Part shown: piece after piece, positions 1-22,379 of the stretch
Position numbering within the stretch: position 1 is the first letter of the stretch
How the letters are laid out: every line of letters begins with the position of its first letter
Assembly (NCBI RefSeq): GCF_907164915.1
Contig: NC_061867.1
Coordinates: 124,001 to 188,000, forward strand
DNA length: 64,000 bases
Direction of reading: 5' to 3'
Source: Impatiens glandulifera
Taxonomy: Eukaryota; Streptophyta; Magnoliopsida; Ericales; Balsaminaceae
Made by a program: the position numbers and the translations under genes
The notes under the pieces: generated by a model
Databases searched by the model: none
The model's input: the letters and a program-made list of their open reading frames with translations, nothing else
Told to the model about the DNA's origin: nothing

Positions 1-2910
1 CCGCCTAAGGACGGTTTTCAAAATCCTTCTAAAATAGACAAAGTCTGTCTTCTATAAATCTAATTATAACATTCTTATCTTTAATTAGTAGTCCAGGGGT
101 CCTAAATGAGGATAAACTTTAAATAATTGTACAAAATTATTTAAAGGAGGTGTGTACCTGTTGCGTTGGGTTTCAGATTTAACAAAACCTGAAAATATCA
201 GAAAAAGATGTTAGAGTGTATAACCAAACAAGACCTAGCAAAAGAAAATTGCTTTGGGAAACATCCCAGAGAATTTTGAGAGTTACTTTATGACCTTGAA
301 AATACCATTTTTTAGAAAATGGGGGTTTGGTTCCAAAATAGTTTTGGATTTTTAAAAATTGGAACCAAACGGGCCTAAGGATTAAACCCTAGGTTCGAGT
401 CCGATCTGGTCAATTTTGGCTTAGTAAGGTTGAAGAGGTTCAATTTTGAGTAAGGGTTCGGACTTAGGCCTAGGGCTATAACGGTCTTAGGTTAAGTGGG
501 GGTTTGATACTAGGCTAGGGCTAGGGTTTGGCCTAGGCTAAGATGAGGCTAGGTTTAGTTGTTAGTCCTAGGTTAGGTGTCAAGGTCAATCCTAGGTCAA
601 GTGGCAAGGTTTGTCCTAGGTTAATTAGGTCTATGCTAGTTTTGTCGGCCCTAAGACAACCTTCTCGGTCGGCGGTCCTGAGCGGTTTCCTCGGTCGCGC
701 GGCTCGGTCCTGGCCTGTTTTTCTCGGCCCGAAGGCAAAATTTCACGGCCTAGTGTTCTTGTTTTGGTCCGAAACTTCAGAAGGCCATAACTTTTGATTG
801 GGATGTCCAAATCACAATCCGTAAGTTGCAGTAGGTTCATATGATCATGAAGAATAAAATCCCTAACATAAATCACGATTTTGAAGATCATAAGAAAATC
901 AATTTTAAAACACCATTTCTAGGTCAAATTTTGGGATCTTTTAAATTAGGCCATTTCAAGGCCTGATTTTTGTTTCATTAGCTTTGAAATGATGAATATA
1001 GTTAATCCATACCAAAACAAGAACATAATTACATCATTAAAATGGTTTTTGAAGATTGAATCAAAATCTAACTTTTTTCAAAAACCAAATTTGATCAAAC
1101 ATGATCAAAAGGGTGAAACAGTTACTTGGAATTCATCCCTACATGTTAGGAATCATGTATAGCTACTAATTGAATCAACAAATCCAACTTAAAAGCAAGA
1201 ACATGAAATTTCAAAAATCCAGATTTTTAACCTTTTTTTCCAAAATTTCAATTTGATCAAACATGATCAAAACATGATTACAGTTACTTATAAATCATCT
1301 AATCATGTATACAAACATGTAATATAACTAATTGAACCAACAAAATAAGATTAAAAGCAAGAACACAAAGTTTTGAAATTCAAAATTTCAAGCTTTTTTC
1401 TCAAATTTCAATTTTGATCAAACATGATCAAAACTTGATTACAGTTGTTTGGAAATGATTCAAACATGTTTATAAACATATATAACAACAATCTGGATCA
1501 ACAAATCCAAATTTAAACCAAGAACACAACATTTCAAAAAAAATCAAATTTTCAAACTGATTTTTGCAAAATTCTGTTCTAGGTTGATTTGATCGGTTTT
1601 TTTTCAACAAAAAGCTTACACATGATATATATAATGATTCTGTACAAAGAAATCATACAATCAAGCATAAGAACACGACCAAAGTGATCAAACAAGAAAT
1701 TTTGAAGAAATTCAAAATTTTCAATTACAAATCAATATTCAAAGCTTCTGGATTCATACCAACAGCTGGAAAACATTCCTGGGAGTTGCTGGAAGTGATC
1801 CAGAAGCCTGGATCGAAGCTTGGCTCGCTGGAGAAAGTTTTGAAAAAAACTGTTCTTCGCCGGATTTTGCAGGTCTTCAATCGGATTGAATTGATGTGTA
1901 ATTCCTGGTTATTGTTTGATGAATTGGTAGTATAGGGGTAGGGGAGTATTTATAGTGCTCGAAGGTCGGCTGTTGAAAGCCAATTTGAGTTTTCTTTGAT
2001 CGTTGGCGTTCTTATCCCTAATTCGTGGCAGCCTTATCCCGGGGAAGATAAGGCTTCTAGATAAGGGGGAAACGTAGGCGCTGACGAGGGGATCACGTGG
2101 GCGAAAAAATCAATGGATTTGATCGCCTGTAGCCGAAGTTAGAGCTTCTGGAAGTTTTGACGCCGGCGATGATCGCGAATCCGGCGACCCTGCATCCCAA
2201 CGAAGAAGATGAACAAAACGACATCGTTTTGAGTAACGGAACGCTGAGTTCCGTCTGGTTCCGTCAGCGGTCAGCCTGGTTGACTAATGGGGTTAGTCTG
2301 TCCCGTTAGTTGATCCGGTGTGGGCGCGCGCGCATGGTTCCGCTACAGCTGTATTTCTGGCGCTCTGGGCTGTCGGATGAGATCTGGGCACTAATCTGAT
2401 GGTCCAGGATCCTGCTGCAAAGTTTAAACATTAAATCAGCCACACAGGATTATGCAATTTTATATTTTATTTAAAAGGTTATTAAAATTCGAATTTAATT
2501 CCTTTTAAATCTATTTTTTCGCCAAAAAATTCACAAAAAATATTTCTAGAATCATAATAACAATTATGATCATATTTTATTTTTTTCAGAATTTTTGGGA
2601 ATTTTGGGGTATTTTATTTAATTGGTTTAAGTCATGAATTAAACATAAATCATGAATAAATCCTAATTAAATATTTTTAATCCCTTCCTTGGTCTAATTT
2701 GGGCAAAATATATACAAATATTTTATCCTCAAATTATTTTTGGAATTTTGGAAAGTTTCCTTAATTAAAGTTTAATTATCACACTAATTAATCCTTAATT
2801 AGGTTTTAATTCCTTCTTTCAAGTTATTTTGAATATAAAAATTATTTTAATATTATTAAACATAATAATATTATTTTGCAAATATGGTAAGTCAAATTTT
2901 CATGCTTACA
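1..2910 (-). repeat. 3' LTR of the Ogre-like element (start cut off)
   Basis: Aligns base for base with 16310-19227, with scattered substitutions and a few small indels. Identity stops at 2910, after CTTACA. The minus-strand LTR therefore begins TGTAAG and, judged from the intact copy, ends GTTACA. A TATA-like CTATAAATAC lies on minus at 1946-1955. Positions 1075-1560 contain three imperfect units of about 165 bp, each with the phrase GATCAAACATGATCAAAA. Confidence 0.92.
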
Positions 2911-2926
2911 GAATGCCCCTCTCGAA
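2911..2926 (-). other. Polypurine tract of the Ogre-like element
   Basis: Immediately inside the 3' LTR the minus strand reads GAGAGGGGCATTC before TGTAAG. The position and the G/A run fit the plus-strand primer site of an LTR retrotransposon. It is a short motif, so this is inferred mainly from position. Confidence 0.55.
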
Positions 2927-3039
2927 CCGAGTTTTGAATAAAACAGTTTTAGTTTTTGGAAAACGTGGGTTCGAGGTTTGATCATAAAAATTTGCACCCT
3001 AACCTAAAGTGAGGTAGAAGGATAAAACCTGGATAGTAG

Positions 3040-4070
3040 TGGCTGCTGGTGGGGAGTCATCACAATGACTCATGGTTGGGGAGAGTATGTGATCTTCCTT
3101 CGCTTGTAGTCTTCTATCGGGGATAGACTATCACAATAGTCTTATCATGCACCGGGAAGATGACAAGGTGTTGTGAGGACGAGTCATGACAATGTCTCAT
3201 TCTCTTATTTACTAAATCTTGTATAGGATAGGCTACGACAATAGTCTTATCCTGTTGGGGAGTAAACGGGACTCCAAATGGGGATGGATTACTATAATAA
3301 TCATGTCATAACAATAACTAATGATGCCTATCAACAAATAGGACTCACCTGAGGATTTAAAAAAACTCTTTGTGGGGAGGAGTCTCCTGTCAGCAAGACT
3401 ACCTATCGGGAGGTATGACTCTCATGACGAATGCTTTCTTGGGAATACAATCCCACGAGGATAGAGGTACAACTCTCGGGGATAATGATAACAATCATAC
3501 CGCGTCCATCAACAAATGGAATCCACTACTAGAGAGTAGTCATTACAATGACTCTCGAGGATGCCTGTAATACGATAGGACATACTATAAGAGATGATAT
3601 CCACAACTAGGACCTTTATGGGGAATGAAGAGAATTCTCCGTTGAGGATGAAGGAAGACCTTCTAGGTGACGTGACAACAATCACGTTGGGTGGTGATAA
3701 CAATCACGCTGTCGTGGGGACTATAGCAACCATCACTTTATGGGTATGATTACTATCGTGTCGAGGATATAAGTTATAACAATAACCTATAGACACGATG
3801 AATGACAACAATCACTCTAGTGGGAGTGGTCATGGAAATGACCGATACAGATACCTATCAAGAGATAGGGCTTACTCTTGTCGGGGATACGCGATCACAT
3901 TCGCTCCGAGGGGAATGGGTTAGAACCATAACCCTGATGGTCTCCAACTTGTTGGGGATGGGTTATAACAATAACCCATATGTGGACACCAATCTATTGG
4001 GGATAGGTTATGACAATAACCTATATAGATTCCTATTGGAATAGGGTTTTAAGAATCACGACAATGATCT
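3040..4070 (-). repeat. Array of small hairpins with compensated stems (Ogre 3' region)
   Basis: A diverged tandem repeat of roughly 50-70 bp units, many opening with GGGGA followed by a short palindrome. Palindromes seen (positions, left stem, loop): 3054-3071 GAGTCAT, CACA; 3126-3141 GACTAT, CACA; 3181-3198 GAGTCAT, GACA (one mismatch); 3287-3302 GATTA, CTATAA; 3327-3342 CCTAT, CAACAA; 3485-3498 ATGAT, AACA; 3505-3520 TCCAT, CAACAA; 3525-3540 ACTACT, AGAG; 3538-3553 AGTCAT, TACA; 3670-3687 ACGTGA, CAACAA; 3694-3707 GTGAT, AACA; 3773-3786 GTTAT, AACA; 3828-3843 GGTCAT, GGAA; 3854-3869 CCTAT, CAAGAG; 3917-3934 GGGTTA, GAACCA; 3958-3979 ATGGGTTAT, AACA; 4003-4024 ATAGGTTAT, GACA; 4032-4045 CCTAT, TGGA. 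Stems differ between units but pairing is kept. In the element's own RNA (minus strand) most four-base loops read UGUN. No open reading frame of note covers it. Confidence 0.85.
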
Positions 4071-4094
4071 TATGTGACTATTAACTAGGGCTTT

Positions 4095-4420
4095 AGATAA
4101 GTCTTGTACGAAGTGACCTTCACATTTAATTGAACCTTTTGCTTCCTCTGGGGATTGCTTACGAGAGGAGTTGTCATAATCGTCAACTTATCTTTCTTGG
4201 GCCTAACAAAGTGTCCTTCTCAACTGGATTAAAACCGTTGATTCTGTGGGGATTTAACACTCGGGGAGCTTCCCATAGAGTTTTTTCATTGGCCTTGCGA
4301 AGGGTCCTTCACAGCTAGGTGAAATTGTCGACCCTTTGGGGAGTTAAGGGAATGGTTTAACATGAACTTTTTTCCTTTGGATTTATAAAGTGTTCTTCAT
4401 AACCTAGTTGACACATTGAC
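4095..4420 (-). repeat. Diverged repeats of about 100 bp in the Ogre 3' region
   Basis: Phrases of the type AAGTGTCCTTC, then a variable CAACTGG-like stretch, then TGGGGA recur near 4110, 4210, 4300 and 4390. The copies are diverged, and the hairpins of the preceding block are not evident here. Non-coding. Confidence 0.5.
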
Positions 4421-4877
4421 CAGTTGTTTTATCACTCTATAAGGTGGAGAGCTTTAATAAAGGTTGTTGGGGGAACAAACTATTCTTAATTATGTCTCGG
4501 ACAAGGTTTGAAAGCAGAAGAAACCCTGGTCTTATCTACGTTATAGGGTGACTTGGATTCGAAACGTGGTCGGGGCTAAGACATGAGCATTCCTGTGTTG
4601 AAAGAGATTGTCTCGTTTCTAAAAGGTCTCGAGCTCCTTATTCTCCTATATTAAGATATGGATGATAAATTCGCTCTCGTGCAGACGATTATCCAAGATA
4701 TTAACTTGCGGGGAAGGTAACCATGAGAATCATGTTCAGTTATATTTTTGTTTGCTTTTGCCGTGGGTCGCAATTCTTCGAAAGTTCGATTATTCCGTGT
4801 ATCATCATAGAGAGAGTTTCAACTTTCTGGTTGGGGAATTTTTCTCTTCTTTTTGTTTTTAACTACCGGGGTGTATC

Positions 4878-5070
4878 TGGTGGAATCGATACGTTTTGCT
4901 CTTGCGATAGACATCGGGACAGCCGCCCGAGTGAGCATAAACGGTGATTTCAACACCTCAACCTACACGGGAGTGTTTTCTATTTTTTTGGTCTTTGTGG
5001 GTATCGACACGTTCTACTCTTGCGATAGTCATCGGGACAGCCGCCCGAGTGAGTATGAACAATGACTTTA
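4878..5070 (-). repeat. Two-copy direct repeat, period about 118 bp
   Basis: The stretch with CTCTTGCGATAG, CATCGGGACAG and CCGCCCGAGTGAG appears at about 4882-4950 and again at 4999-5068 with few differences. It belongs to the non-coding 3' region of the Ogre-like element. The bases on to about 5640 hold a short run of GAGCTTACT repeats near 5490-5540 and nothing else I recognise. Confidence 0.75.
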
Positions 5071-5639
5071 CCCTAATCTGCAGGGGATTTTTTTGTAGAT
5101 ATATATTTTTTGGAGCCTTGAGTCTAGTTCTCTCTGTTCTTTTATACAAAGGGGAATGAGACGTCCTTTCTCAAATTGCGGCTTTGGCTTGGCTTTTGGG
5201 GTTTTATTCCATTTCTTTTTCAAAAGCCTTCCCTTGAGGGTTAGTTTTCTAGATAATCGCATAACACGAAAACAAGCTTATTAAGGATATCCATCGATAG
5301 AAGTTTTCTGGAAACTCGGGGTTTTGATTCGGGAGATCAATCATAGTTTGTTTAAAGGAAATGCCCTTGACTTTCGCCCTTACTTGTTTCCTAAAATCCT
5401 TATCACTAGTTGGTGGAAAGAACCAGGGTTCCCACTGTCCTCAGACCCTGTGGGGATAGAACTAGAAATAGTTCATTTATTTTGAGTTTGAGCATCTTGA
5501 GCTTACTGAGCTTCTAGAGCTTACTGAGCTCATTGAGACCAGACCTGTACAAAGGTTGCCTACGTATCTTCCATTTGTTCTTGATATATTCTTTTATTTT
5601 CTTTGGAAGAATCAGGTCTCACGTAGTTCTCCCACTGTT

Positions 5640-5905
5640 GATGATGACATAGTTGTACAAAACTAGAGGTCGACTAGTTCACTCCAAGTTGAGGACTAGC
5701 TGGGGATTTCCAACGTAGTAATACAATACTAGTGGTTGATTAGTCCACTCTCAGTTGGGGACTAACTGTTGGGGAAATGTCTAACAAGACTAGAGCTTCG
5801 ATTAGTCCTTTAGAGGACAAGACTAGAGGTCAATTAGTCCACTCTTAGCTGGAGACTAACTGATGGTAGTTATGGCATAGACATACACCACTAGAGGTTG
5901 GTTGG
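5640..5905 (-). repeat. Repeats of about 50 bp built on ACTAG...CTAGT palindromes
   Basis: About five imperfect copies of an ACTAGAGGTC-like start, TTAGTCCACTC and GGACTAACTG (near 5662, 5729, 5790, 5820 and 5890). Several can pair as GACTA with TAGTC around a 7-10 base loop. This is a second family of short palindromic repeats in the same 3' region. Confidence 0.65.
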
Positions 5906-5917
5906 TCTAAGAGGACT

Positions 5918-6010
5918 TAATCCTGGTAAGGCTGGATCGAGAGCCGTCGTGATCCTGCTAAGGCTAGATCAGAGCCGTTGTAATCCTGCTAAGGCTAGAT
6001 TAGAGCCGTG
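5918..6010 (-). repeat. Minisatellite, three units of about 32 bp
   Basis: Three consecutive copies of AATCCTGCTAAGGCTAGAT followed by an AGAGCCGT ending. They lie just downstream (minus strand) of the integrase stop codon. Confidence 0.8.
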
Positions 6011-6035
6011 GCGCGAAACGATATTAGACATAATA

Positions 6036-6985
6036 TCATTTTAGGGCATCTAGATTGCTAGGAGCAACAAATTCTTCGCCTTCAACTGTTGAAAGGCGAA
6101 CCGCACCTCCAGAGAGGATTTTCTTGATGAGGAAGGGACCTTCCCATCGTGGTCGGAACTTGCCCCTAGGGTCTAACAGTTCACGGGTTACTTTGAGCAC
6201 TAGGTCACCTTCTTTTAGGCTTCTGGGTTTGACCTTTCTATTAAAGGTATCGGCCATTCGTTTCTGGTAAGCCTGGGTTTTGCATAACGCATCCAACCTA
6301 TGGTCTTCCATCAATGTCAACTGGTCGTATCGAGCTTTTACCCAATCTTCTTCAACAACGTGAGATTCCAATAGGATTCTCAGTGTGGGGATTTCAATCT
6401 CGATGGGTTGTACGGCATCCATGCCGTAAACTAGAGAATAGGGAGTCTCGTCTGTCGATGCTCGAGCAGTCGTACGATATCCCCATAAGGCGAATGGCAG
6501 CTTTTCATGCCAATCCTTATATGTGTTGGTCATCTTCTTGATGATCCTAATCACATTCTTGTTTGTCGCTTCGACCGCGCCATTGGTTTGGGGTCGATAG
6601 GGTGAAGATTTGTGATGTTCGATCTTGAATTCTTTAAGAAGGGATAAAACCTTTCCTTGGAAGTGTCTTCCATTATCCGAGACAATAGCATGAGGTACTC
6701 CGTATCTAGCTATGATATTAACACGGATGAATTTTGCTACCTGAGTAGACTTAAGGATCTTATAAGACGATGCCTCGACCCATTTAGAGAAATAGTCGAT
6801 GGCTACGAGTATGAACTCATGTCCATTGGAAGCATGGGGATAGATTTTTCCAATGACATCAATGCCCCATGTCGAAAAGGGCCATGGTGATGTCATGCAG
6901 TATAGCAAAGATGTTAGAGTATGCTTTAAATTAGCATAGATTTGGCATTGGTGAAAACTTTTCACATAGCTGACATTCTTGCTCA
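6036..6985 (-). CDS. Ogre-like integrase (frameshifted 3' part of pol)
   Basis: Encodes the integrase core and C-terminal domain that insert element cDNA into the chromosome. In the open frame ending at 6036 the catalytic triad is intact: Asp in GIDVIGK, Asp in VSDNGRHF, and Glu in NGAVEATNK, 35 residues after the second Asp (DD35E). The GPY/F-type segment KFRPRWEGPFLI follows near the C-terminus. The frame is offset by one base from the upstream RT frame. The break falls near 6970 inside the HHCC zinc finger: the upstream frame keeps the first Cys (EQECQ) and the downstream frame keeps HQCQIYAN, so one lost base is the simplest explanation. The Cys normally found before HQC has become Phe. 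Open reading in this frame extends to 7040, but the first residues there are an out-of-frame artefact. This copy probably makes no functional integrase. Confidence 0.9.
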
Positions 6986-9501
6986 ATGTTTTGCCAATAG
7001 TATCCGAGATGGAGTATTTTCTTAGCAAGGGCGAGTCCATTCATGTGTGAACCACACACACCTGCATGTACTTCTTCTATGATCCTTCGTGCCTCGGGAC
7101 CATTGACGCAAAGCATGTTTTGACCATCAAAAGATCGTATGTATAGCTTATTAGCTATCCAAGCATAGTTGGTGGAATACTGGCGCAGGGCTCTTCGTTC
7201 CTTAGCTCGGAAGTGGGACGGATATTCTCCATACACAATGTAGTTTTGAAGGATATCGAACCATGGTTTAGTGGGCACTTGAACGGAGGCTACCACTCCA
7301 ACTTCGAAATCGGATTTTCGTTTCTGACGGATCTTTAGAGGTTTGACCTTAATTCCAACAGGAATTTGGGTCATAGATGCTAGCGTGGCCAAAGCATCGG
7401 CAAAGCGATTTTGGCTTCTTGGGGTGTGTACAAAAGACACATGATCGAACTTGTCGATAAAATGGAGTAGGCAAGTGTGATAAGGTTTGAGATTTTCTCC
7501 TCGTACTTTCCATGTTCCATTAACTTGGGATATAACCAGATTAGAGTCGCCGATTACGTCTAATTTAGTTGCTCCTCTTTCGTATGCGATTTTGAGACCT
7601 GAGAGACATGCTTCGTACTCAGCCTCATTGTTGGTTACAGAATACTCTAACTTAATAGAGACGGGATTGTAGGTTCCCTTGGGATCTATTAAGAGAATTC
7701 CAATTCCGTAACCATGTTTGGAGGAGGCTCCATCAAACATTAACTTCCATGTGTCTGAAGTTATAGACATTATGGAGTCATCAGGAAAGTCGAGTTCGAA
7801 AGAAGGCTCGACTATGATAGGTTGATCTGCTAGGAAGTCCGCAATAGCACTTCCCTTAACAGATTTTTGAGCCGTATACGTGATGTCGTATTCGGAGATC
7901 ATCATCATCCATTTAGAGAATCTAGGCGACAACAACGTACGTTGAAATAGATAATGGATTGGGTCAAGCCTAGACACTAACTTGATGGGGTGGGTTTGCA
8001 TATAATGTCTTAGTCTTTTGGTGACCCATGCGAGTTCCCAACACACTTTCTCGGGTGTTGAATAGTTCAATTCGTACCATGTCATTCTCTTGCTTAAGTA
8101 GTAGACGACAATCTCGACCTTATCCTCGTTTTCTTGAGCCAACAAGCTACCCATAGCCGAGTTTGTCACTGTGAGATGGAGAATTAAAGGGATACCGGGC
8201 CTTGGAGGCATAAGGACCGGTGGTGACTTTAGATAGTCTTTGATTTTTTCAAAAGCTTGTTGACAAGTGTCATCCCATTGGAATTTCTGATCTTTTTTCA
8301 GTAGCTTAAAAAGAGGATCACAAGTAAGAGTTAGTTTGCTGATGAAACGACTGATGAACTGGATTTTTCCGAGGAAGCCTCGGACTTCTCGCTCATTCCG
8401 AGGTACAGGCATAGCCGTAATGGCCTCGATTTTGGAGGGATCGATTTCTATTCCACGTTGGGTGATGAGAAATCCTAGCATCTTACCGGCAGTGACTCCG
8501 AAAGCACACTTCTTCGGGTTCAGTCGAAGCCGATACTTTCGAATTCTTTGCAAGAATTTGTCTAAGTTGGGAATATGACCCCGTCGATCCTTAGACTTTA
8601 CGATCATGTCGTCTATGTAGACTTCTACCTCTTTATGGATCATGTCGTGTAAGATCATCGTTACTGCTCGTTGATAGGTAGCTCCAGCGTTTTTGAGACC
8701 GAAAGGCATGACCCTGAAACAGAACGTGCCTACCTCCGTGATAAAGGTAATCTTTTCTTTGTCTTCTTCCGCAATCTGAATTTGGTTATATCCTGAGAAT
8801 CCATCCATGAAAGACAAGAGTTGATTGCCGGCAGCATGATCGACCAGAATGTCAATGTGGGGCAAATGAAAGCTATCCTTAGGACTAGCCTTGTTCAAAT
8901 CGCGGTAGTCTACACACACGCGCATCCTTCCGTCCTTCTTCAAGACGGGAACCACATTGGCTATCCATACGGGGTAGTCTACAGTTTCGAGGAATTTTGC
9001 TTCCAACTGTTTCTGGACCTCTTCTTTAACCTTGGCGACAACCTCAGTTTTCATTCGTCTTAACCTTTGTTTAACGGGTTTTGCCTCTGGATAAAGGGGA
9101 ATTTGATGTCGAACGATTGCAGGATCCACTCCAGGCATATCCTTGTAAGACCAAGCAAACACGTCTTTGTTGGTCTTTAGTAATTCGATCATCTCATGAC
9201 GCTCGTCATCACTCAGGCTCTGTCCAATCAACACAATTTGAGGATCGTCTTGAGTATTGAGGTTTACTTCGATTGTTGTCTCGGCTGCGGAAACGATCTC
9301 GTCCTCGTGTTCTAAGAAGTTTTTCATTTCGAAATTAAATTCAGAGTTGAATGAAACATCATCATTATCTGACATATATTCGAAACTGTACTCTGGCGTT
9401 TTATTGGATGCTTTATTACAAATAGAAGATGACAACTCATCAGGATTGTCATTACAAACTTCTTTATTTATTACAACATCAGACACTATTTCATAATCCA
9501 A
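6931..9501 (-). CDS. Ogre-like reverse transcriptase, double RNase H and integrase N-terminus
   Basis: An 856-codon open frame. RT motifs in order: FMDGFSGYNQI (about residues 231-241), MPFGLKNAGATYQR (265-278) and YIDDM (295-299). The first RNase H (about 440-560) appears inactive because its first catalytic Asp position reads TVTNS. A second, archaeal-type RNase H follows with its four acidic residues intact: Asp590 (LMFDGAS), Glu628 (NNEAEYEA), Asp652 (GDSNLV) and Asp702 (ADALA). This two-RNase-H layout is known in the Tat lineage. The integrase HHCC finger begins near residue 812 and then meets a frameshift near 6970. The first codon of the frame is TTG. The frame is open further upstream to about 9640, so the protein start depends on splicing or readthrough from the protease gene. 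RT and the second RNase H look potentially active in this copy. Confidence 0.95.
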   Translation of the reverse strand: MDYEIVSDVVINKEVCNDNPDELSSSICNKASNKTPEYSFEYMSDNDDVSFNSEFNFEMKNFLEHEDEIVSAAETTIEVNLNTQDDPQIVLIGQSLSDDERHEMIELLKTNKDVFAWSYKDMPGVDPAIVRHQIPLYPEAKPVKQRLRRMKTEVVAKVKEEVQKQLEAKFLETVDYPVWIANVVPVLKKDGRMRVCVDYRDLNKASPKDSFHLPHIDILVDHAAGNQLLSFMDGFSGYNQIQIAEEDKEKITFITEVGTFCFRVMPFGLKNAGATYQRAVTMILHDMIHKEVEVYIDDMIVKSKDRRGHIPNLDKFLQRIRKYRLRLNPKKCAFGVTAGKMLGFLITQRGIEIDPSKIEAITAMPVPRNEREVRGFLGKIQFISRFISKLTLTCDPLFKLLKKDQKFQWDDTCQQAFEKIKDYLKSPPVLMPPRPGIPLILHLTVTNSAMGSLLAQENEDKVEIVVYYLSKRMTWYELNYSTPEKVCWELAWVTKRLRHYMQTHPIKLVSRLDPIHYLFQRTLLSPRFSKWMMMISEYDITYTAQKSVKGSAIADFLADQPIIVEPSFELDFPDDSIMSITSDTWKLMFDGASSKHGYGIGILLIDPKGTYNPVSIKLEYSVTNNEAEYEACLSGLKIAYERGATKLDVIGDSNLVISQVNGTWKVRGENLKPYHTCLLHFIDKFDHVSFVHTPRSQNRFADALATLASMTQIPVGIKVKPLKIRQKRKSDFEVGVVASVQVPTKPWFDILQNYIVYGEYPSHFRAKERRALRQYSTNYAWIANKLYIRSFDGQNMLCVNGPEARRIIEEVHAGVCGSHMNGLALAKKILHLGYYWQNIEQECQLCEKFSPMPNLC

Positions 9502-9820
9502 AAGGGGTGTGATGTTGCTATCAACACTCAGGTTGATTACAGGAGCTTTATCAACTGGCAGAAGGTTTGTGGAGTTTATCTTACAAGAGTCTTCATCAAC
9601 AACCGCGTCCTCGTCCGTTAGAGAAAGATCTCTAACAAGCTTTTCCAGGTTTCATGCCAATAAGCAGTCCTTTTCCTAATCATATTAAGAGTTGAATTAG
9701 GATTAAAAGAACAATCTAGAAAGGTTTCGAAACCTAGAGAGAGCGAGTTTGTAAAACTTGGTTGAAGAAAGGTTCGGGGAACTCGAAACACAATGTGGTT
9801 TTTCCTTCTCGCACAAACTG
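9502..9820 (-). other. Protease-to-RT junction, possible intron
   Basis: Between the protease stop (9821) and the RT frame no single frame stays open. Ogre elements are known to carry an intron here. A GT donor candidate AAAG|GTAAAA lies near 9870 at the end of the protease frame. A pyrimidine-rich acceptor candidate CTCTCTAG lies near 9735. Joined directly, these reach the frame ending at 9618 and not the RT frame, so either another acceptor is used or this copy carries a frameshift. The splice sites are inference. Confidence 0.4.
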
Positions 9821-10975
9821 TCAATTTAGGGTTGGAGGAATAAGTATAAATTGTTTAGAGATTTTACCTTTCCTGGATTCCTCGCCCTCTGTCGGAGTAT
9901 AACCGATGCCAAAGTTGTCTGAGTCGTAGTAAGACCAGGGGAAGGAAGTCATGCCGGTAGCATTCGGCCCTAGACCCATTCCTGGGAAATATCCCATTTT
10001 CTGCATGAGACGCATGGAGATTGCGCTGTAGGGAGTGAAGTCAGGAGTGGAAGATGAGTCTTGACCTTGCCTAAATATAGGACAGATGTCGAATCCACTT
10101 AACTCAATCTCTGGGTTAGTGGAATGAGTTGAACCGATGATGGCTGTGACGTATTTCTCACCTTCTATGGTGACGAGTTTTCCGTTAGCCATGAAACGAA
10201 TTTTCTGATGCAGGGTGGAGGCAAGAGCCTTAGCCTGATGCAACCAGGGTCGTCCCAAGATTAGGTTGTACGATGGTCGCATGTTGATTACGCAGAATTC
10301 TACCTCAAAATGTACATTAGCTACGTAGATCGTTGTTAGGTAGCTGCCCATAATCTCTCGACGAGAATTGTCAAAGCCACTGACGCACAGGTCTGAGGGG
10401 AGGACTTTATCAGCAGAAATGTCGAGCTCTTGGAGAGTCTTCCAGGGACATATGTTCAATGCTGAACCATTGTCGATTAGAGTCATATGAATGACTTTAT
10501 CAACCATTTTTACAGAAATATAAAGAGCTTTAACATGGGGTTCATCGGGAGCAGGTAGGTCTTTGTCCTCGAACCCTATCATGTTGATCCGAGGAGTTGA
10601 TGAGATGATACCAACCAACTCTTCTGGAGTCGTGTTGGCTGGTATACTGGCCTGGCTTAGCTCATTTAGAACAGCTTGCCTGTGTTCGATAGAATACATA
10701 AGGATTTCCCAGATGGAAATGTTGGCATTAGTCTTCTTGAGCTGAGCAAGAAGACTATCACCAGGATTTAAAGCTCTAGGCTCGTTTTCCCTTCTTGGAT
10801 CGTTAGATGGGCCGGGAAGATTGACTGCAGGGGTTGTTTTCATGAAACTAGGCTGGAAGTCGGTTCCGCTCCAGGTTGGTAAAACTTCTCGTTGTACTAT
10901 TTTGGGAGCGTTATCCACCAATTTCGAGGTATTACCGGCGAATGTGGAGCTTCTCGGTCCTCCTTTTTGGGCCAT
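9821..10975 (-). CDS. Ogre-like aspartic protease with G-patch
   Basis: A 384-codon open frame starting at ATG (MAQKGG). The protease active-site motif is LIDNGSALN, with catalytic Asp at about residue 168. The DNGS form, in place of DTG or DSG, is usual in this lineage. The flap-like LILGRPWLH lies near 239-247. A G-patch follows at about 324-342 (MQKMGYFPGMGLG), a glycine-rich RNA-binding motif known from Ogre-type protease regions. The frame differs from gag by one base. After the gag stop at 11086 the gag frame continues with coding-like residues (NPLPDHQVN) to just before this ATG, so a frameshift or shifted start joins the two. Confidence 0.9.
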   Translation of the reverse strand: MAQKGGPRSSTFAGNTSKLVDNAPKIVQREVLPTWSGTDFQPSFMKTTPAVNLPGPSNDPRRENEPRALNPGDSLLAQLKKTNANISIWEILMYSIEHRQAVLNELSQASIPANTTPEELVGIISSTPRINMIGFEDKDLPAPDEPHVKALYISVKMVDKVIHMTLIDNGSALNICPWKTLQELDISADKVLPSDLCVSGFDNSRREIMGSYLTTIYVANVHFEVEFCVINMRPSYNLILGRPWLHQAKALASTLHQKIRFMANGKLVTIEGEKYVTAIIGSTHSTNPEIELSGFDICPIFRQGQDSSSTPDFTPYSAISMRLMQKMGYFPGMGLGPNATGMTSFPWSYYDSDNFGIGYTPTEGEESRKGKISKQFILIPPTLN

Positions 10976-11085
10976 GGGTTGATCATATTAACCTCTAGAG
11001 GGTTAACTGGTTCGTTTGTAGAAATTAGGTTGACCTGATGATCAGGCAACGGATTGCTCGCGATTTCGGGTTTAGGAATGATTTT

Positions 11086-12471
11086 CTAATCAATCCGGTC
11101 TTGACACTGATGTTTAAGGGCACTACAATTATCAGTAGAGTGCCCCTTCATTTGATGATATGCGCACCATGCCTCTTCAAACTTACCAAGGGACTCTACC
11201 CCTTCTCGAGGAGCTAAAGGCTTGATGAGGTTCCTCTGATGAAGGAAGGTAAAAGCTTGACTCAAGGTCATGCCTAGATCATCAAAAGTTCTGGGAGGTC
11301 TTGGGACCCTCAGAATTGGCGGCTTAGGCGTCGTCGGGACATTTGTTTTGGCCAATACCGGTTTGCTTGGACTAGGCTTAGGAGGAGTAGGGGCCTGCCA
11401 GGCAGTTGTGACCTGGTGAACTTCGGTTTTGTCCTTCCTCTGAGGTCGTGGAGGGGCAGCATAGGCCTTTATGGTTTTACCCTCTTTCCTTTCCTTATCA
11501 AAGGCTTCGTCGAGGTTACTACCTGTTTTGAGGAGCTTTTTCATGTTTTGGAAAGTCTTTACGGCGAATCCAACAGAATATCGACCGTTAACATTATCCA
11601 GAATCATGTCGATTTGTCTTTGTTCGCTAGGCAGGGATTCAATCTCTTCAGCAACCGCTTTCCACTATTCGATAAAGACCGCGAATTTTTCGTTTTCGCC
11701 TTGCTTGACATTCTTGAGCTTCTTCTCTGGCCGTTCTAAGCTGAGATGCATGCTGAAACGTTCTATGAAGGCAGACGCGAGTTCATCGATAGTCTGAAGA
11801 TAAACTATCTTCTTTTGGTGATACCAACGTAGGGTCGCATCATCTAAATACTGGGGAAATAGATGGAGGACTGTCGGTTCTCCCAAATATAAAGGTGTCA
11901 TGGCCATGATGTATATCTGGAAGAAAGCAGCAGGGTCAGTCTTGCCTACATACTTTGATAGAGAAGGTAGCTTTATCCCAAAAGGGATTATTGCTCGTTC
12001 GGAAGTTTTCATGGCATTTTTCCAATCATGGTGTTCATCCAAACTGCCTTTGGTCAATTGATTGAGTTGCTCTTGGAACTTGGCCTGGTTAGCATTCAAT
12101 TGAGCCATTTGGATCTCGTATTCCATAGGAGGGATGATCGAAGGGTTTGCCCCTTCTTGGGCATTAGGGTTGTCAGCAACTTCTGGCTGAGTCCTTGCTG
12201 ACCTGTTATCATCTTCAGGAGGCTCTTCATAGAGAGAGGCTTCTTCCACGCGACGATTCTGAGGATTGATCCTGATCGGAGTGGCAATAGGCGTAGCCAG
12301 TGGCGGCTGTCGTGACGAGGATGGCTGCTCCGGGGCTGGGATGGCAGGCTTAGTCATCAAGCTCGTTAATATTGCCAACTGTTCAGTGACTTGCTGAAGA
12401 GTAGCTTTCATCTCAGCAAACTCAGTTGGGGATACTGTGTCCTTAACGCTTTTTGGAGTTCCTTCGGCCAT
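11086..12471 (-). pseudogene. Ogre-like gag with one internal stop
   Basis: The frame runs from ATG (MAEGTPKS) at 12471 to TAG at 11086 and is broken once, by TAG at 11665-11667. The first part (268 codons) holds a proline-rich N-terminal region and the conserved capsid segment IIPFGIKLPSLSKYVG, FFQIYIMAMTPLY and LRWYHQKK. The second part (from about 11664) ends with a zinc knuckle CAYHQMKGHSTDNC, spaced CX2HX4HX4C, the form common in Tat/Athila gag. Both parts are in one frame, so a single substitution explains the break. The 300 bases upstream (12472-12770) separate it from the second ORF1 copy and show nothing else. Confidence 0.9.
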
Positions 12472-12770
12472 GACTTGGCGTACAAAACGTCCGGTTCTTG
12501 GATCTCTTTTTCGTGGGGCCGTACTTGCACGAAAGTGACTGGTGCAATGTTAAGAAGATAGAGATAGATGAAGCTTTGTAGATGTAGTACAATACAAATG
12601 AAAAATGCGAGACATGAATTTAGGAAAGCAAGGATTTCATTCATGATCAAATAGACAAACAAAGAGCTGTATATAAACATACTGGCAGTGTTTGTTACAG
12701 AGAGACTCTCTTATTTATATTTTACAAAAGAGTCTAAATGGGAAAAAGTCCCAGATGAAAGCGAAACTTC

Positions 12771-13871: not shown

Positions 13872-14106
13872 CGTGGTTGACTGTGACAGTAGGAGAGAGA
13901 AGGTATTGCAAATATAACAACAAAAACAAATTTGTATGCAAACAACATGACATATAGATAAACATCCCGTAAGGTTTTATACATATTTGCTTTCAAAAGA
14001 AAGAACTTCCGATGTTACATTTCAAAATTTCGGAGTTCTTTGGGGTTTGTCTAGTTGACTATACTATGCCGCTTTGTGCAAAAAGGGTGAAACTTGGGGC
14101 TCCTCT

Positions 14107-15234
14107 TCAAGGGGAACGAGTTCGACTACAGCGAGTGGAGGTAACAAAACCTTCACTTTCTGCTTCTGTTTGTTGGAGGTGGAATTCGTCCATGATCTGG
14201 TCGATGTAGTCCTTGCGATCTTTAGGGATTCCTATTTTGACGCAATCATTCCAAAGATCCAGATAGTCGGCAAAGTCATTGTGCTGGATTGGCCTATCTA
14301 TGGCTACCACGCAGTCAAGGCAAGGGGGCATGTAGTCGCGCCCGAACTGTTTAAACAGTTCACTGGTGTAGTATGAAGTAATACACTCAAGGCCCATGAG
14401 TATGATGATGGGTTGGTCGCTCATCAGATGGACCATCTTTTTAATACCATACAATGGAAGAAGCTCTCGAATGGGATCATCATCGTGGACAGGGAGCTCT
14501 GGTTTGATGTGCCTGAAGCGTCGATTCTGGAGGGCAGTACCCATCACGTTGCCAGGAAGTGGAGGAGGAATACGCTCCATCTTCTCTAGGAGCCAGATGT
14601 AGAGGATGATAGGAGCTCCCCTTTGATTGAGAGAGTATGAGTAGTATGACTCGTTGAGACTCATTAGTGTCTCTGCTAGAATGATCCCAGAGGGATCTTT
14701 ATTTCCACCTCTAAGATTATAGACCACTTCTAGGATCCTTGCGGATGGAGGGCGATTTCTCGAAGGAGCAAGGAGGAAGTGAGCTACCATAATGGACATG
14801 GTGAGTAAAGAAGCGTCGAAGCTTAGTGGAGGGATTTCTCCATTTTGGGTTGCCACTTTGACCCAGCGAGGAAAGTCCAAGTGATTTCTAGCGAGGATTT
14901 TGTTTGCCACGGTTTTCGTGTAGCCCAGCTCATCTTGGAGGAGTTGTCTGAGAGACATGGCTTCGGCCGAGGGTTTGAGCCTTAGAATGTTCTTGCTTCT
15001 GATCATCATGATGGCCTTGAATTCCTCAATTGTTGGGCAAATCTGGCGATCCCCTAGTATAAAGGCGCGGTGTACCGGATCCCATCTGCGTTGCATATCC
15101 ATCATGAAGCCATGGTGGAGGCGGTGATTAGTATAGTTGAGAGCGATGTTGATCCCAAAGGAGTCATAGTACCACAGATACTCATTGAAGTGGTGAGTCC
15201 ATATGGAGAGGTCCTCATTGTCTAATAGGGCCAT
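14107..15234 (-). CDS. Ogre-type ORF1 protein of unknown function, open copy
   Basis: An open frame of 376 codons upstream of gag. The ATG at 15234 (AGAATGGCC, a good plant start context) aligns with the ATG of the decayed second copy. The frame is open to 15288 and an earlier ATG lies at 15264. There is no recognisable enzyme motif. The pattern of an F-x-L-G-D element followed by CPTIEEFKAIM resembles the plant mobile domain / DUF7745 type proteins found as ORF1 in Ogre elements. That family assignment is from memory of the pattern and is moderate. The role in the element's life cycle is not established. Confidence 0.75.
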   Translation of the reverse strand: MALLDNEDLSIWTHHFNEYLWYYDSFGINIALNYTNHRLHHGFMMDMQRRWDPVHRAFILGDRQICPTIEEFKAIMMIRSKNILRLKPSAEAMSLRQLLQDELGYTKTVANKILARNHLDFPRWVKVATQNGEIPPLSFDASLLTMSIMVAHFLLAPSRNRPPSARILEVVYNLRGGNKDPSGIILAETLMSLNESYYSYSLNQRGAPIILYIWLLEKMERIPPPLPGNVMGTALQNRRFRHIKPELPVHDDDPIRELLPLYGIKKMVHLMSDQPIIILMGLECITSYYTSELFKQFGRDYMPPCLDCVVAIDRPIQHNDFADYLDLWNDCVKIGIPKDRKDYIDQIMDEFHLQQTEAESEGFVTSTRCSRTRSP

Positions 15235-15816
15235 TCTGCGAACACAATCAACTTTGACAAACATGTCGAGTGATTTTGATGAAAGCAAACATGCTTAGAG
15301 ATGTTTTAGTATATCTATTATAAACGTATGCATGTATAATAAATAAGCACGTACTGAGTTGACTTGTCGAGGCCTTGCTGTTTGGGCACGTCCAAACAAC
15401 GGTTGGATAGAGTAACCAGGTTTTGTGTGCTAAGGTTTTCTGTCGAGGTTTGGGTGGGAATTTCTCCCCACCATCGCTAAGATCGCATCCCGGAGAATGT
15501 ATCAAAGCCGACAGAAGGGATCCACTCCGGGTTCCTAGTCTTTTCTCACGCAACATCTCTTGGTCACAGACCGGTATGATCGGTCTTCACGTAATTATAG
15601 GAGTACAAAATTCCGACCTAGTACTCCTTCACGTAAGTCTGGGTGATGTACCCATCCGAGGCAAGTATTAGGGTAAACTTAAGTATAGGATAAAACCTAA
15701 GTACCTGTTGGAGTGATGGACCCCATGAGGTGGACTATTGTGAGAGTGGAATGTTATAAATATCAATTTATAAATAACCAGAACTTTGTCTATTTTATTC
15801 ATTTTAAAATAACAAA
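15235..15816 (-). other. Untranslated leader of the Ogre-like element
   Basis: Lies between the PBS and ORF1. A frame at 15248-15556 matches nothing I recognise and lacks similarity to ORF1. I see no other feature in it. Confidence 0.5.
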
Positions 15817-15837
15817 GGTCCCCAGAAGAGTCGCCAA
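15817..15837 (-). other. Primer binding site, tRNA-Arg type
   Basis: On minus, a few bases after the LTR end, the sequence reads TTGGCGACTCTTCTGGGGAC. The TGGCGACTC...TGGGGA pattern is the primer site typical of Ogre/Tat elements, usually assigned to a tRNA-Arg. It fixes the 5' LTR on the right side and the element on the minus strand. Confidence 0.85.
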
Positions 15838-15843
15838 GAAAGC

Positions 15844-18800
15844 TGTAACACCGTTTTATTTCCCCCCCCCCGGTCTATGTCCCGTTCCATAGCTTATCAC
15901 GTGTTTGTGAGACACGTGGCAATATGGAAGGACTACCGCGAGGCAGCTCGAGGTTCAATGATTTCAACCTTGGTTTGCGTACCATGCATCTTTTAAAATG
16001 AAACATTTAATTTTTAAAAGATTTTGAGAATACCTGGAGCAGTAATAAATTAATTATGTAAAATAATTAATCTTTTGTTCAAACATTAATAATCTAGGAG
16101 GCTGAATAACAATTTAACCTGACCCGATTTAAATCAATTAAACATAATCAATTTAAAGATTATTCATTTGAAAATCAGAGTCGCCAAGAGATTTTATGAA
16201 AATCAATAAAATGATACGTGTACAAACGTATTTATACCATAGTTTCTAAAAAAGTGGTTCGTTGTCTGTTTACGCTCGGGAAAGGGTTTTCGCGCTATGT
16301 CATTTGCGCCCGCCTAAGGACGGTTTTCAAAATCCTTCTAAAATAGACAAAGTCTGGCTTCTATAAATCTAATTATAACATTCCTTATCTTTAATTAGTA
16401 GTCTAGGGGTCCTAAATGAGGATAAACTTTAAATAATTGTACAAAATTATTTAAAGGAGGTGTGTACCTGTTGCGTTGGGTTTCAGATTTAACAAAACCT
16501 AAAAATATCAGAAAAAGATGTTAGAGGGTATAACCAAACAAGACCTAGCAAAAGAAAATTGCTTTGGAAAACATCCCAGAGAATTTTGAGAGTTACTTTA
16601 TGACCTTGAAAATACCATTTTTTAGAAAATGGGGGCTTGGTTCCAAAATAGTTTTGGATTTGTAAAAATTGGAACCAAACGGGCCTAAGGATTAAACCCT
16701 AGATTCGAGTCCGATCTGGTCAATTTTGGCTTAGTAAGGTTGAAGAGGTTCAATTTTGAGTAAGGGTTCGGACTTAGGCCTAGGGCTATAACGGTCTTAT
16801 GTTAAGTGGGGGTTTGATACTAGGCTAGGGCTAGGGTTTGGCCTAGGCTAAGATGAGGCTAGGTTTAGTTGTTAGTCCTAGGTTAGGTGTCAAGGTCAAT
16901 CCTAGGTCAAGTGGCAAGGTTTGTCCTAGGTTAATTAGGTCTAGGCTAGTTTTGTCGGCCCTAAGACAACCTTCTCGGTCGGGTGGCACGGTCCTGAGCG
17001 GTTTCCTCGGTCGCTCGGCTCGGTCCTGGCCTGTTTTTCTCGGCCCGAAGGCAAAATTTCACGGCCTGGTGTTCTTGTTTTGGTCCGAAACTTCAGAAGG
17101 CCATAACTTTTGATTGGGATGTCCAAATCACAATCCGTAAGTTGCAGTAGGTTCATATGATCATGAAGAACAAAAGCCCTAACATAAATGACGATTTTGA
17201 AGATCATAAGAAAATCAATTTTAAAACATCATTTCTAGGTCAAATTTTGGGATCTTTTAAATTAGGCCATTTCAAGGCCTGATTTTTGTTTCATTAGCTT
17301 TGAAATGATGAATATAGTTAATCCATACCAAAACAAGAACATCATTACATCATTAAAATGGTTTTTGAAGATTGAATCAAAATCTAACTTTTTTCAAAAA
17401 CCAAATTTAATCAAACATGATCAAAAGGGTGAAACAGTTACTTGGAATTCATCCCTACATGTTAGGAATCATGTATAGCTACTAATTGAATCAACAAATC
17501 CAACTTAGAAGCAAGAACATGAAATTTCAAAAATCCAGATTTTTAACATTTTTTCCAAAATTTCAATTTGATCAAACATGATCAAAACATGATTACAGTT
17601 ACTTATAAACCATCTAATCATGTATACAAACATGTAATACAACTAATTGAACCAACAAAATAAGATTAAAAGCAAGAACACAAAGTTTTGAAATTCAAAT
17701 TTTCAAACTTTTTTCTCAAATTTCAATTTTGATCAAACATGATCAAAACTTGATTACAGTTGTTTGGAAATGATTCAAACATGTTTATAAACATATATAA
17801 CAACAATCTGGATCAACAAATCTAAATTTAAACCAAGAACACAACATTTCAAAAAAAAAAATCAAATTTTCAAACTGATTTTTGCAAAATTCTGTTCTAG
17901 GTTGATTTGATCGTTTTTTTTCAACAAAAAGTTTACACATGATATATATAATGATTCTGTACAAAGAAATCATACAATCAAGAATAAGAACACGACCAAA
18001 GTGATCAAACAAGAAATTTTGAAGAAATTCAAAATTTTCAATTACAAATCAATATTCAAAGCTTCTGGATTCATACCAACAGCTGGAAAACATTCCTGGG
18101 AGTTGCTGGAAGTGATCCAGAAGCCTGGATCGAAGCTTGGCTCGCTGGAGAAAGTTTTGAAAAAAACTGTTCTTCGCCAGATTTTGCAGGTCTTCAATCG
18201 GATTGAATTGATGTGTAATTCCTGGTTATTGTTTGATGAATTGGTAGTAGAGGGGTAGGGGAGTATTTATAGTGCTCGAAGGTCGGCTGTAGAAAGCCAA
18301 TTTGAGTTTTCTTTGATCGTTGGCGTTCTTATCCCTAATTCATGGCAGCCTTATCCCGGGGAAGATAAGGCTTCTAGATAAGGGGGAAACGTAGGCGCTG
18401 ACGAGGGGATCACGTGGGCGAAAAAATCAATGGATTTGATCGCCTGTAACCGAAGTTAGAGCTTCTGGAAGTTTTGACGTCAGCGATGATCGCGAATCCG
18501 GCGACCCTGCATCCCAACGAAGAAGATGAACAAAACAACGTCGTTTTGAGTAACGGAACGCTGAGTTCTATCTGGTTCCGTCAACGGTCAGCCTGGTTGA
18601 CTAACGGGGTTAGTCTGTCCCGTTAGTTGATTCGGTGCGGGCGCGCGCGCATGGTTCCGATACAGCTGGATTTCTGGCGCTCTGGGCTGTCGGATGAGAT
18701 CTTGGCACTCATCTGATGGTCCATGATCCTGCTGCAAAGTTTAAACATAAAATCAGCCACACAGGATTATGCAATTTTATATTTTATTTAAAAGGTTATT

Positions 18801-19227
18801 AAAATTCGAATTTAATTCCTTTTAAATCCATTTTTTCGCCAAAAAATTCACAAAAAATATTTCTAGAATCATAATAACAATTATGATCATATTTTATTTT
18901 TTTCAGAATTTTTGAGAATTTTGGGGTATTTTATTTAATTGGTTTAAGTCATGAATTAAACATAAATCATGAATAAATCCTAATTAAATATTTTTAATCC
19001 CTTCCTTGGTCTAATTTGGGCAAAATATATACAAATATTTTATCCTCAAATTATTTTTGGAATTTTGGAAAGTTTCCTTAATTAAAGTTTAATTATCACA
19101 CTAATTAATCCTTAATTAGGTTTTAATTCCTTCTTTCAAGTTATTTTGAATATAAAAATTATTTTAATATTATTAAACATAATAATATTATTTTGCAAAT
19201 AGGGTAAGTCAAATTTTCATGCTTACA
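15844..19227 (-). repeat. 5' LTR of the Ogre-like element (complete, 3384 bp)
   Basis: On minus it starts TGTAAGCATG and ends GGTGTTACA, the TG...CA ends of an LTR with a short inverted repeat TGTAA/TTACA. It matches 1-2910 over the shared part. It contains a 10-base C run at 15862-15871 and the same three-unit 165 bp repeat (about 17390-17865) as the other LTR. Frames of 80-90 codons appear at matching positions in both LTRs and are not genes. Confidence 0.93.
18263..18272 (-). promoter_or_regulatory. TATA box of the LTR promoter
   Basis: CTATAAATAC on minus, about 960 bases into the LTR, with C/T-rich sequence just downstream. The identical motif is at 1946-1955 in the other LTR. The position suits the U3 promoter driving the element's RNA leftwards. 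Inferred from motif and position only. Confidence 0.5.
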
Positions 19228-19257
19228 GTCCTCAACACCCATACCTAGGATTTTTAG

Positions 19258-21490: not shown

Positions 21491-22311
21491 CAAATTATCT
21501 AGGCGGGCATCTAATTACTCTGATTGTTCAATTTTAATTCTCAAATTAATTTTTGAAACAAATCGCCTTTTAACTTTTAGAAAGGTCACGAATAACCCTT
21601 TCGTCAACTATTTGGTTAACGGTTAAGCTTAAAATATTGTTTTTTTTATATATTATTTTTAAGTTTATTTTTTATATTTTAATTATTAAATCGCTTATAT
21701 ATAATATTATATATATTATTAATTTTTATATTTATATAATTATTAAATCTTTTATATACTATATAGATAATATATATATATTATTTATTTTTATCTATAT
21801 TTATATAAAATAAAGTTTAAAATCATTTATAAAATTTATATATAATATATATTTTAAAAAATAATTAAGTAGTTGGAAGATTACTATTATTTTTAACCCT
21901 CAAATTATTTTTTTAAATATATATTATATAAATTTATATATATATATATATATATATATAATAATGATTAAAGATAATATATAAATTATTTTTAAACTTT
22001 ATTTTATAGATATAGAAATATATATATATATATAAATAAATAATATATATATAAGAGATTTAATAATTATATAAATATAAAATTAATGATAAAAGATATA
22101 TATATATATATATATATAATATATATAAGCGATTTAATAATTATATATATAAATATAAAAAATAAGATTAAAGATAATATATATAAAAAATATTTTAAGT
22201 TTGAGTAGTTATGTTAAACAAAACGTTGATAAAAAGGTAATTAGTGAGTTTTTTAAAAGTTGAAGGAACGATTTATTTCAAAATTTAATTTGAGGGCTAC
22301 TTCAGGTAATT

Positions 22312-22313: not shown

Positions 22314-22376
<63 letters not shown>
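22314..22376. repeat. (AT)n microsatellite
   Basis: About 63 bases of pure alternating A and T next to the foldback element. Such a tract is prone to length change and can also be misassembled. Confidence 0.95.

Positions 22377-22379
<3 letters not shown>

Follow-up and report, generated by a model that had tools for sequence, protein, structure and literature searches.

A hairpin array with covarying stems between pol and the 3' LTR of an Ogre-type retrotransposon of Impatiens glandulifera

Ogre-type elements account for a large share of some plant genomes, 45% in the case of Lathyrus sativus, and the repeats in their 3' untranslated regions (3' UTRs) have been discussed as strand-transfer products and as seeds of satellite DNA (PMC7004042). 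These hypervariable tandem repeats, described for Ogre/Tat elements by Macas et al. (2009; quoted in PMC7004042) and as GmOgre minisatellites in PMC3305785, belong to the same lineage as the array described here and, like it, are situated between pol and the 3' LTR. Their units, a few tens of nucleotides long, are also of the same size as ours (PMC7004042, PMC3305785). All positions given below refer to the window, the stretch of 64,000 nucleotides of I. glandulifera DNA that was analyzed. Unlike the Ogre/Tat repeats, the present array contains no head-to-tail, near-identical monomers except for a 45-bp repeat of 2.6 copies at 3911-4025, the only tandem repeat called inside 3040-4070. Its units differ in sequence yet keep a hairpin, and they are recognizable in five divergent loci. 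The main text of PMC3305785 contains none of the terms "hairpin", "secondary structure" and "palindrom", and the main texts of PMC7004042 and PMC11963269 contain neither "hairpin" nor "secondary structure". Among the titles and abstract openings listed in searches of the open-access literature we found no description of a hairpin array in the 3' region of an Ogre/Tat element, an absence that is not proof.

Structured RNA elements are known from several other systems. The stem-loops of STNV share a loop motif, the 3' stem-loop of LINEs serves target-primed reverse transcription, and the CTE is a single complex fold positioned between pol and the 3' LTR. Like the dispersed packaging stem-loops of STNV-1 (PMC6475782), the present array consists of many short stem-loops with a common loop motif and variable stems; STNV-1, however, is a satellite virus with a coat protein, whereas we describe a single 3' array of a retroelement. 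The RTE and MTE export elements (PMC12786077) and the CTE are also cis-acting RNA structures in retroelements. In contrast to our array, for which Rfam 15 gave no family match at E ≤ 1 (2800-4400), they are large folds with known export partners. In LINEs, a conserved stem-loop in the 3' UTR is recognized by an element protein (PMC5135761, PMC4176376), but these are non-LTR elements and carry one stem-loop.

The array resides in a Ty3/gypsy retrotransposon of Ogre type, which is oriented along the minus strand (Table 1). Positions 1-2911 (3' LTR) and 16310-19228 (5' LTR) are 97.8% identical over 2.9 kb, and AGGAC on both outer flanks represents a 5-bp target duplication; the left LTR end and its flank were taken from the adjoining sequence L041. 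In RNA sense, the ORFs are ordered DUF7745-like, gag-like, G-patch, RT-RNase H-second RNase H and integrase. RVT_1 (residues 237-394), RT_RNaseH_2 (459-557) and RVT_3 (639-757) lie in a single ORF, with rve in the next ORF, and the second RNase H (aRH) is located between RH and INT, an arrangement that marks Ogre and Retand (PMC6317226). The antisense ORFs that Retand elements carry between pol and the 3' LTR (PMC11963269) are without counterpart in our element, in which 2911-6035 holds no plus-strand ORF of at least 150 aa. The extra ORF at 14107-15294 has the orientation of the element and lies upstream of the gag-like ORF. An extra forward ORF 5' of gag is a feature we take to be typical of Ogre, so its position and orientation point to Ogre. 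The earlier note had called the element Ogre-like and had placed the hairpins in its 3' region; the aRH, the extra 5' ORF and the location of the array between pol and the 3' LTR agree with both statements.

When all minus-strand frames of 6001-15844 were scanned for the CCHC zinc knuckle (C..C.{3,5}H.{3,5}C), none was found, and a protease motif resembling D[ST]G[AS] was likewise missing from about 9600-11200. The missing knuckle may reflect a gag that does without one, or a decayed copy. One scan of the RT protein against viral_contigs returned no match. The product of the G-patch ORF is a possible nucleic-acid-binding partner. Further repeats are found in the 3' UTR upstream of the array (a 61-bp direct repeat at 4882-4942 and 5000-5060, 88.5% identical), at 5918-6009 (31 bp, 2.9 copies) and within both LTRs (1088-1540 and 17404-17855; a 161-bp tandem repeat of 2.8 copies with about 75% matches). 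Elsewhere in the window, five near-identical 293-bp tandem copies at 35419-36895 (97% matches) are satellite-like, and a long AT-rich inverted self-match at 21540-22294 (74%) adjoins a perfect (AT)32 run at 22314-22377.

Table 1 Features of the element and units of the hairpin array; hairpins are written in RNA sense as stem-loop-stem.
Feature	Position	Strand	Remark
3' LTR	1..2910, continues left to about C6:123540	-	full LTR about 3.38 kb, TGTAA...TTACA
Unit-like hairpin AUCAUAAU-UGUU-AUUAUGAU in 3' LTR	2547..2569	-	unit covariance model
Polypurine tract region, CGAGAGGGGCATTC	2911..2924	-	RNA sense; directly precedes 3' LTR
Hairpin array, about 20 units	3049..4070	-	3' UTR, between pol and 3' LTR
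GAGUCAU-UGUG-AUGACUC	3054..3071	-	pair 3: G-C here, G-U in L077, A-U in L079 and L081
AGACUAU-UGUG-AUAGUCU	3125..3142	-	identical units in L077 and L079
Hairpin with one mismatch	3179..3200	-	pair 5 G-C to A-U in L079
AGACUAU-UGUC-GUAGCCU, one mismatch	3230..3247	-	fully paired AUAGUCU version in 9/40 copies
AGUUAU-UGUU-AUGACA, outermost A-A unpaired	3304..3319	-	relatives have GUCAU/AUGAC or AUCAU/AUGAU
CCUAUU-UGUU-GAUAGG	3327..3342	-	L040 and L072: CCUAUC/GGUAGG
AUGAU-UGUU-AUCAU	3485..3498	-	outer A-U is G-C in L077, L078, L079 and L080, A-C in L081
UCCAUU-UGUU-GAUGGA	3505..3520	-	
AGUCAU-UGUA-AUGACU	3538..3553	-	
ACGUGAU-UGUU-GUCACGU	3670..3687	-	U-G closing pair
GUGAU-UGUU-AUCAC	3694..3707	-	
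10-bp hairpin UAUAGGUUAU-UGUU-AUAACUUAUA	3768..3791	-	one G-U
GAGUGAU-UGUU-GUCAUUC	3800..3817	-	
GGUCAU-UUCC-AUGACC	3828..3843	-	commonest version has loop UGCC, 13/40 copies
Altered-loop hairpin	3917..3934	-	commonest version perfect GGGUUAU-UGUU-AUAACCC, 11/40 copies
9-bp hairpin AUGGGUUAU-UGUU-AUAACCCAU	3958..3979	-	
9-bp hairpin AUAGGUUAU-UGUC-AUAACCUAU	4003..4024	-	
GAUCAU-UGUC-GUGAUU	4054..4069	-	aligned in all five divergent loci
Remaining 3' UTR	4071..6035	-	rich in C-tracts
Integrase (rve PF00665)	6036..7040	-	ORF next to RT/RNase H ORF
RT, RNase H, second RNase H (RVT_1, RT_RNaseH_2, RVT_3)	6931..9651	-	
ORF with G-patch domain (PF01585, 4.3e-08)	9821..10987	-	just before RT
gag-like ORF	11665..12549	-	Retrotrans_gag E 0.0042, 17.7 bits, under cut-off 24.1
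Extra 5' ORF, DUF7745-like	14107..15294	-	22 bits, under cut-off 26
Probable primer binding site TGGCGACTCTTCTGGGGACC	15817..15836	-	starts 7 nt downstream of 5' LTR
5' LTR	15844..19227	-	
Hairpin AUCAUAAU-UGUU-AUUAUGAU in 5' LTR	18864..18886	-	unit covariance model

In RNA sense, each unit of the array has the form stem-UGUN-stem with mostly A-U pairs flanking the loop, and neighboring loops lie 21-133 nt apart. The earlier note had counted about 18 hairpins at 3040-4070, and they are located as it said. Both perfect 9-bp stems that it had singled out are exact, and a third hairpin reaches 10 bp with one G-U pair. It had described loops of four or six bases; the six-base ones become four-base loops closed by U-G once G-U pairs are admitted in RNA sense, as at 3670-3687. 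A coding reading of the array was rejected, as no ORF of at least 150 aa overlaps it.

The number of hairpins is far above that in shuffled sequence, the comparison that the earlier note had named as one able to refute it. When the stem has at least 5, 6, 7 and 8 bp, 3040-4070 contains 19, 9, 4 and 2 perfect hairpins, respectively, with a loop of 4-6 nt and no overlap, whereas 200 dinucleotide shuffles gave means of 3.3, 0.8, 0.29 and 0.03 and maxima of 9, 3, 3 and 1. The loop proved to be conserved, as claimed: UGUN is flanked by five standard pairs at 14 of 27 occurrences in the array, compared to 1 of 28 in 4071-6000, 2 of 58 in 6036-9651 and 1 of 62 in 9651-15300. All nine UGUU in the array form the loop of a 5-bp stem; outside it, five flanking pairs are found at 0 of 9, 2 of 18 and 1 of 21 in the same three regions. 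The mean folding z-score of ten 150-nt segments of the array is about -2.1 in RNA sense and about -2.35 on the plus strand, against -0.9 and -0.8 for segments starting at 4112-9612. A GGGGA lead-in, the other conserved feature proposed for the units, did not prove specific to them. Its RNA version, UCCCC, is present in 13 copies each in the array (1.03 kb) and in 4071-6000 (1.93 kb), and neither contains GGGG. UCCCC is denser in the array, yet it is a trait of the whole 3' UTR, and it was rejected as a unit component.

Because a pairing count is circular for hairpins that were picked for their pairing, we selected anchors by AT-TNTN-RT only, left pairs 3-6 free, and compared the units' own arms with arms dealt among the units. 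In the window, 53 of 60 cells at 15 anchors are paired, above the permuted mean of 38.5 and the maximum of 48 reached in 2000 permutations. The same test was applied to the five divergent loci (L077-L081) over the whole fetched stretch, LTR parts included. Three of them beat all permutations, namely L077 (44/60; permuted mean 32.6, maximum 42), L079 (59/84; mean 42.1, maximum 55) and L081 (57/88; mean 40.7, with none of 5000 permutations reaching 57). L080 (42/76; mean 32.6, maximum 43) stays below its permuted maximum and L078 (30/44; mean 22.9, maximum 30) equals it. L082, which holds only part of an array and was excluded from the alignments, has 14 of 16 cells paired at four anchors, a value reached by 448 of 5000 permutations. 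A weak background excess of pairing exists in the rest of the window: on both strands of 22001-64000, 186 anchors have 316 of 744 cells paired against 310.4, and pairs 3-5 are all formed at 24 of them (mean 15, maximum 27). For 16 window units, chosen with their pairing known, the covariation score is 0.765, compared to 0.273 ± 0.044 after shuffling (0 of 500 reach 0.765) and 0.11-0.20 with slid partners. Chance and composition are rejected by the dinucleotide shuffles together with the arm permutation, and the hairpin array with covarying stems is confirmed.

The five divergent loci come from the same genome. A search with the pattern ATAACAAT-ATNACAAT-ATNACAAT was not enriched over its reversed control (137 versus 144 matches), and L077-L081 were chosen by eye among the pattern matches listed; as the pattern contains the loop motif, loop conservation in these loci is partly due to the choice. 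In their longest matching pieces, the five loci share 66-77% identity with the window and 66-81% among themselves, and with L079 and L081 at 81% they may stand for four families. The pol protein of L081 is 59-61% identical to that of the window on the RT side and 72% identical in the integrase, and that of L079 is 74% identical over an integrase piece; the array is present even at these pol identities of 59-74%.

We aligned the five loci with eight copies of the window's own family, trimming the L080 row before unrelated AT-rich sequence. In these 13 rows, 90.6% of 1323 cells are paired. Eleven base pairs show changes on both sides, ten of them involving divergent loci, which adds to the anchor test in bearing out the covariation of the stems. 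The number of such pairs is 2-7 with slid partners and averages 5.75 in 1000 shuffles, 6 of which reach 11. Cells changed on both sides number 16, a value reached by none of 1000 shuffles; further pair types show no excess in this alignment (207 of 1000 shuffles). Examples are the hairpin at 3498, where A-U has become G-C in four loci, and that at 3071, where G-C has become A-U in two loci and G-U in a third. In nine of the ten hairpins concerned there is a single both-sided pair, not a block. One of the eleven pairs (4024, pair 9) rests on the same-family copy L075, and for the two at 3142 the L079 sequence compared may be that of a neighboring unit.

A covariance model of 16 window units (R1) was searched against nine sources totaling 81.5 kb. 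At E ≤ 1 it has 17 matches in the window, all on the minus strand; 15 of these fall in the array and include 14 training units, and the others are one hairpin per LTR (2547 and 18864). The remaining 3' UTR at 4071-6035 is without a match at E ≤ 10. In the other eight loci, R1 finds 47 units at E ≤ 1, all 47 in RNA sense, with 12 in L072 of the same family, none in L084 and a few in LTRs. A pairless model (R2) finds 27 in the same loci, a comparison in which the E-values are rough and the two models were calibrated separately. A further match of the unit model (23.5 bits) lies at 1140-1162 on the minus strand of L083, on the pol side of the L079 array and about 2.1 kb away from it; the array of that element may be longer or split. 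L079 and L081 carry TTAATTAT-TGTG-ATAATTAA in their apparent LTR; the hairpin motif may extend into the LTR.

An ordinary tandem repeat in decay, or a set of chance palindromes, might be expected in this place, given that Tat 3' UTRs are known for tandem repeats (PMC7004042; PMC11963269 for Retand). The shuffles, the arm permutation, the cross-locus alignment, the covariation score and the covariance-model search all contradict this explanation, and we give it hardly any weight. Hairpins, covariation, the location between pol and the 3' LTR and the presence in related elements were computed directly from the DNA, and the folding of the hairpins looks preserved across these elements.

Within the family, a DNA search of the 654-Mb assembly yielded 42 matches distributed over 40 loci, with identities of 84-100% in the aligned stretch. 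None of these loci was discarded, and 5 further copies found with a second query brought the set to 45. The array is largely collinear across the 45 copies, and in 718 of 788 hairpins no more than one position is unpaired, compared to 0-64 of 576-693 in all slid controls except slide -6 (229/576). Changes reconstructed on a tree were divided into shared (branches to at least three copies) and private (single-copy branches), on the assumption that shared changes arose mostly during element mobility and private changes mostly after insertion. Among stem changes, the shared ones keep pairing in 22 cases, restore it in 5 and break it in 20, compared to 88, 11 and 160 for the private ones. Keeping or restoring against breaking is thus 27:20 for shared and 99:160 for private changes (Fisher p 0.016). 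Per ancestral base, stems have fewer shared changes than spacers do (A 0.15/0.21, C 0.29/0.43, G 0.34/0.62, T 0.13/0.24). For the loop, the values are reduced at G (0.47) and T (0.09), barely so at C (0.40), and raised at the sole A site (1.0). Private changes are likewise somewhat rarer in stems than in spacers. Both-sided changes are nearly absent inside the family: in the 45-copy tree, the 77 stem changes placed on branches with two or more descendant copies include none, and the 40-copy tree shows one pair. The earlier note had named uncompensated stem changes in other copies as a second possible refutation, and here the outcome is divided: single copies do carry such changes, as expected of dead copies, but the shared changes keep pairing more often.

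If the array folds as RNA, G-U in RNA sense is expected to be better tolerated than A-C. At the closing pair, static wobbles number 13 G-U versus 1 A-C. The totals are 35:21 (p 0.08), or 39:23 for the divergent loci plus the window. Changes from Watson-Crick pairs to G-U versus A-C along the tree show no strand preference (24:19 on internal and 75:62 on terminal branches), and for the nine transition-type both-sided pairs a divergent locus has the G-U state at 2 and the A-C state at 3. An early G-U count of 10:1 was biased, because the hairpins had been chosen with G-U scored as paired. Several counts were tried, and wobble strand bias is not convincing as proof of RNA. The strand tests are mixed; the single-strand loop common to the units and the closing pair speak for RNA, but substitution bias does not.

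The strand symmetry could also indicate a role in DNA or cDNA, in which hairpins of the minus-strand cDNA or of the RNA template pause reverse transcriptase near the PPT and so aid plus-strand priming, or provide sites for a DNA-binding protein. The array would be well placed for this, since it lies about 140 nt from the 3' LTR in RNA sense and near the first template copied after LTR and PPT. Pausing, however, needs no conserved UGUN loop, and the wobble at the closing pair favors the RNA sense, so that we regard a DNA role as improbable.

The strongest rival explanation is upkeep by mutation without selection, in which template switching during reverse transcription or replication copies arm onto arm and units convert one another, which would keep the arms complementary during drift of the array. 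The strand-symmetric substitution pattern agrees with such arm copying, as do the A-C states, which are at least as frequent as G-U at both-sided pairs (3 versus 2), and the folding z-scores, which are equally low on both strands. Duplication of units is visible in the 45-bp repeat at 3911-4025 and in the duplicated AGACUAU units of L079. Some of the both-sided changes could be exchanges of whole units, as the GUGAU/AUCAC that stands at 3498 in other loci is the unit at 3707, and abnormal strand transfer has been proposed as the origin of Ogre 3' UTR repeats (quoted in PMC7004042). Yet arm copying leaves the shared loop unexplained, and the nine hairpins with one both-sided pair instead of a block do not fit it well. 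Private changes, moreover, rarely repair pairs (11 restored versus 160 broken, figures that stand without a computed expectation). Overall, we consider this explanation unlikely.

We tentatively prefer, at a little less than an even chance, to see the array as a cis-acting RNA platform under selection within Ogre genomic RNA, which would offer an RNA-binding protein a multivalent site. About twenty small hairpins would then present stems that differ and a U(G/A)UN tetraloop that is much alike, and a loop conserved on variable paired stems would be the trace left by a protein that reads loop and helix. With twenty units per kilobase, binding could proceed through many weak contacts, and the position beside the polypurine tract would make the array common to spliced and unspliced RNA. 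We infer that RNA is the folding molecule and that the array may serve to mark the RNA of the element.

Packaging by an element protein would be the likeliest use, accounting for about half of the platform reading, with export of unspliced RNA next. Against packaging, no protein partner was found, the minus-strand frames of 6001-15844 contain no CCHC knuckle, and the degenerate packaging signals of STNV-1, for which a similar case had been made, showed no discernible in vivo role (PMC6475782). Dimerization, also suggested in the earlier note, is unlikely to occur by kissing loops, as UGUN is not self-complementary; the interpretation given there is partly supported.

An element governing the fate of unspliced, intron-bearing Ogre RNA or its export from the nucleus, like the CTE, RTE and MTE of retroviruses and mouse LTR elements, would be another use of such a platform and overlaps with the platform reading. 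The array sits between pol and the 3' LTR, Ogre is among the few intron-bearing plant elements, and RTE and MTE act via NXF1 (PMC12786077). As a site in the 3' UTR is retained in both spliced and unspliced RNA, it suits export better than it would a signal selecting unspliced RNA. CTE, RTE and MTE are, however, single complex folds, unlike twenty small hairpins, and the absence of an Rfam family match also speaks against export, which appears distinctly unlikely. For plant LTR elements, RNA export has as yet seen no direct study according to PMC12786077.

The finding of a covarying array with a shared loop means that at least one repeat region of an Ogre 3' UTR is under constraint, and the UGUN hairpin provides a concrete motif for studying how plant LTR elements select, export and package their RNA. 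A broader reading, which we consider doubtful, is that the array represents a previously undescribed modular RNA structure, in which interchangeable hairpins are selected for pairing and for U(G/A)UN and act as a multivalent tag of genomic RNA for a dedicated element or host protein. If true, plant LTR elements would possess a packaging or export code, and the degeneracy of the units would account for a turnover of repeats in Tat 3' UTRs with their function kept.
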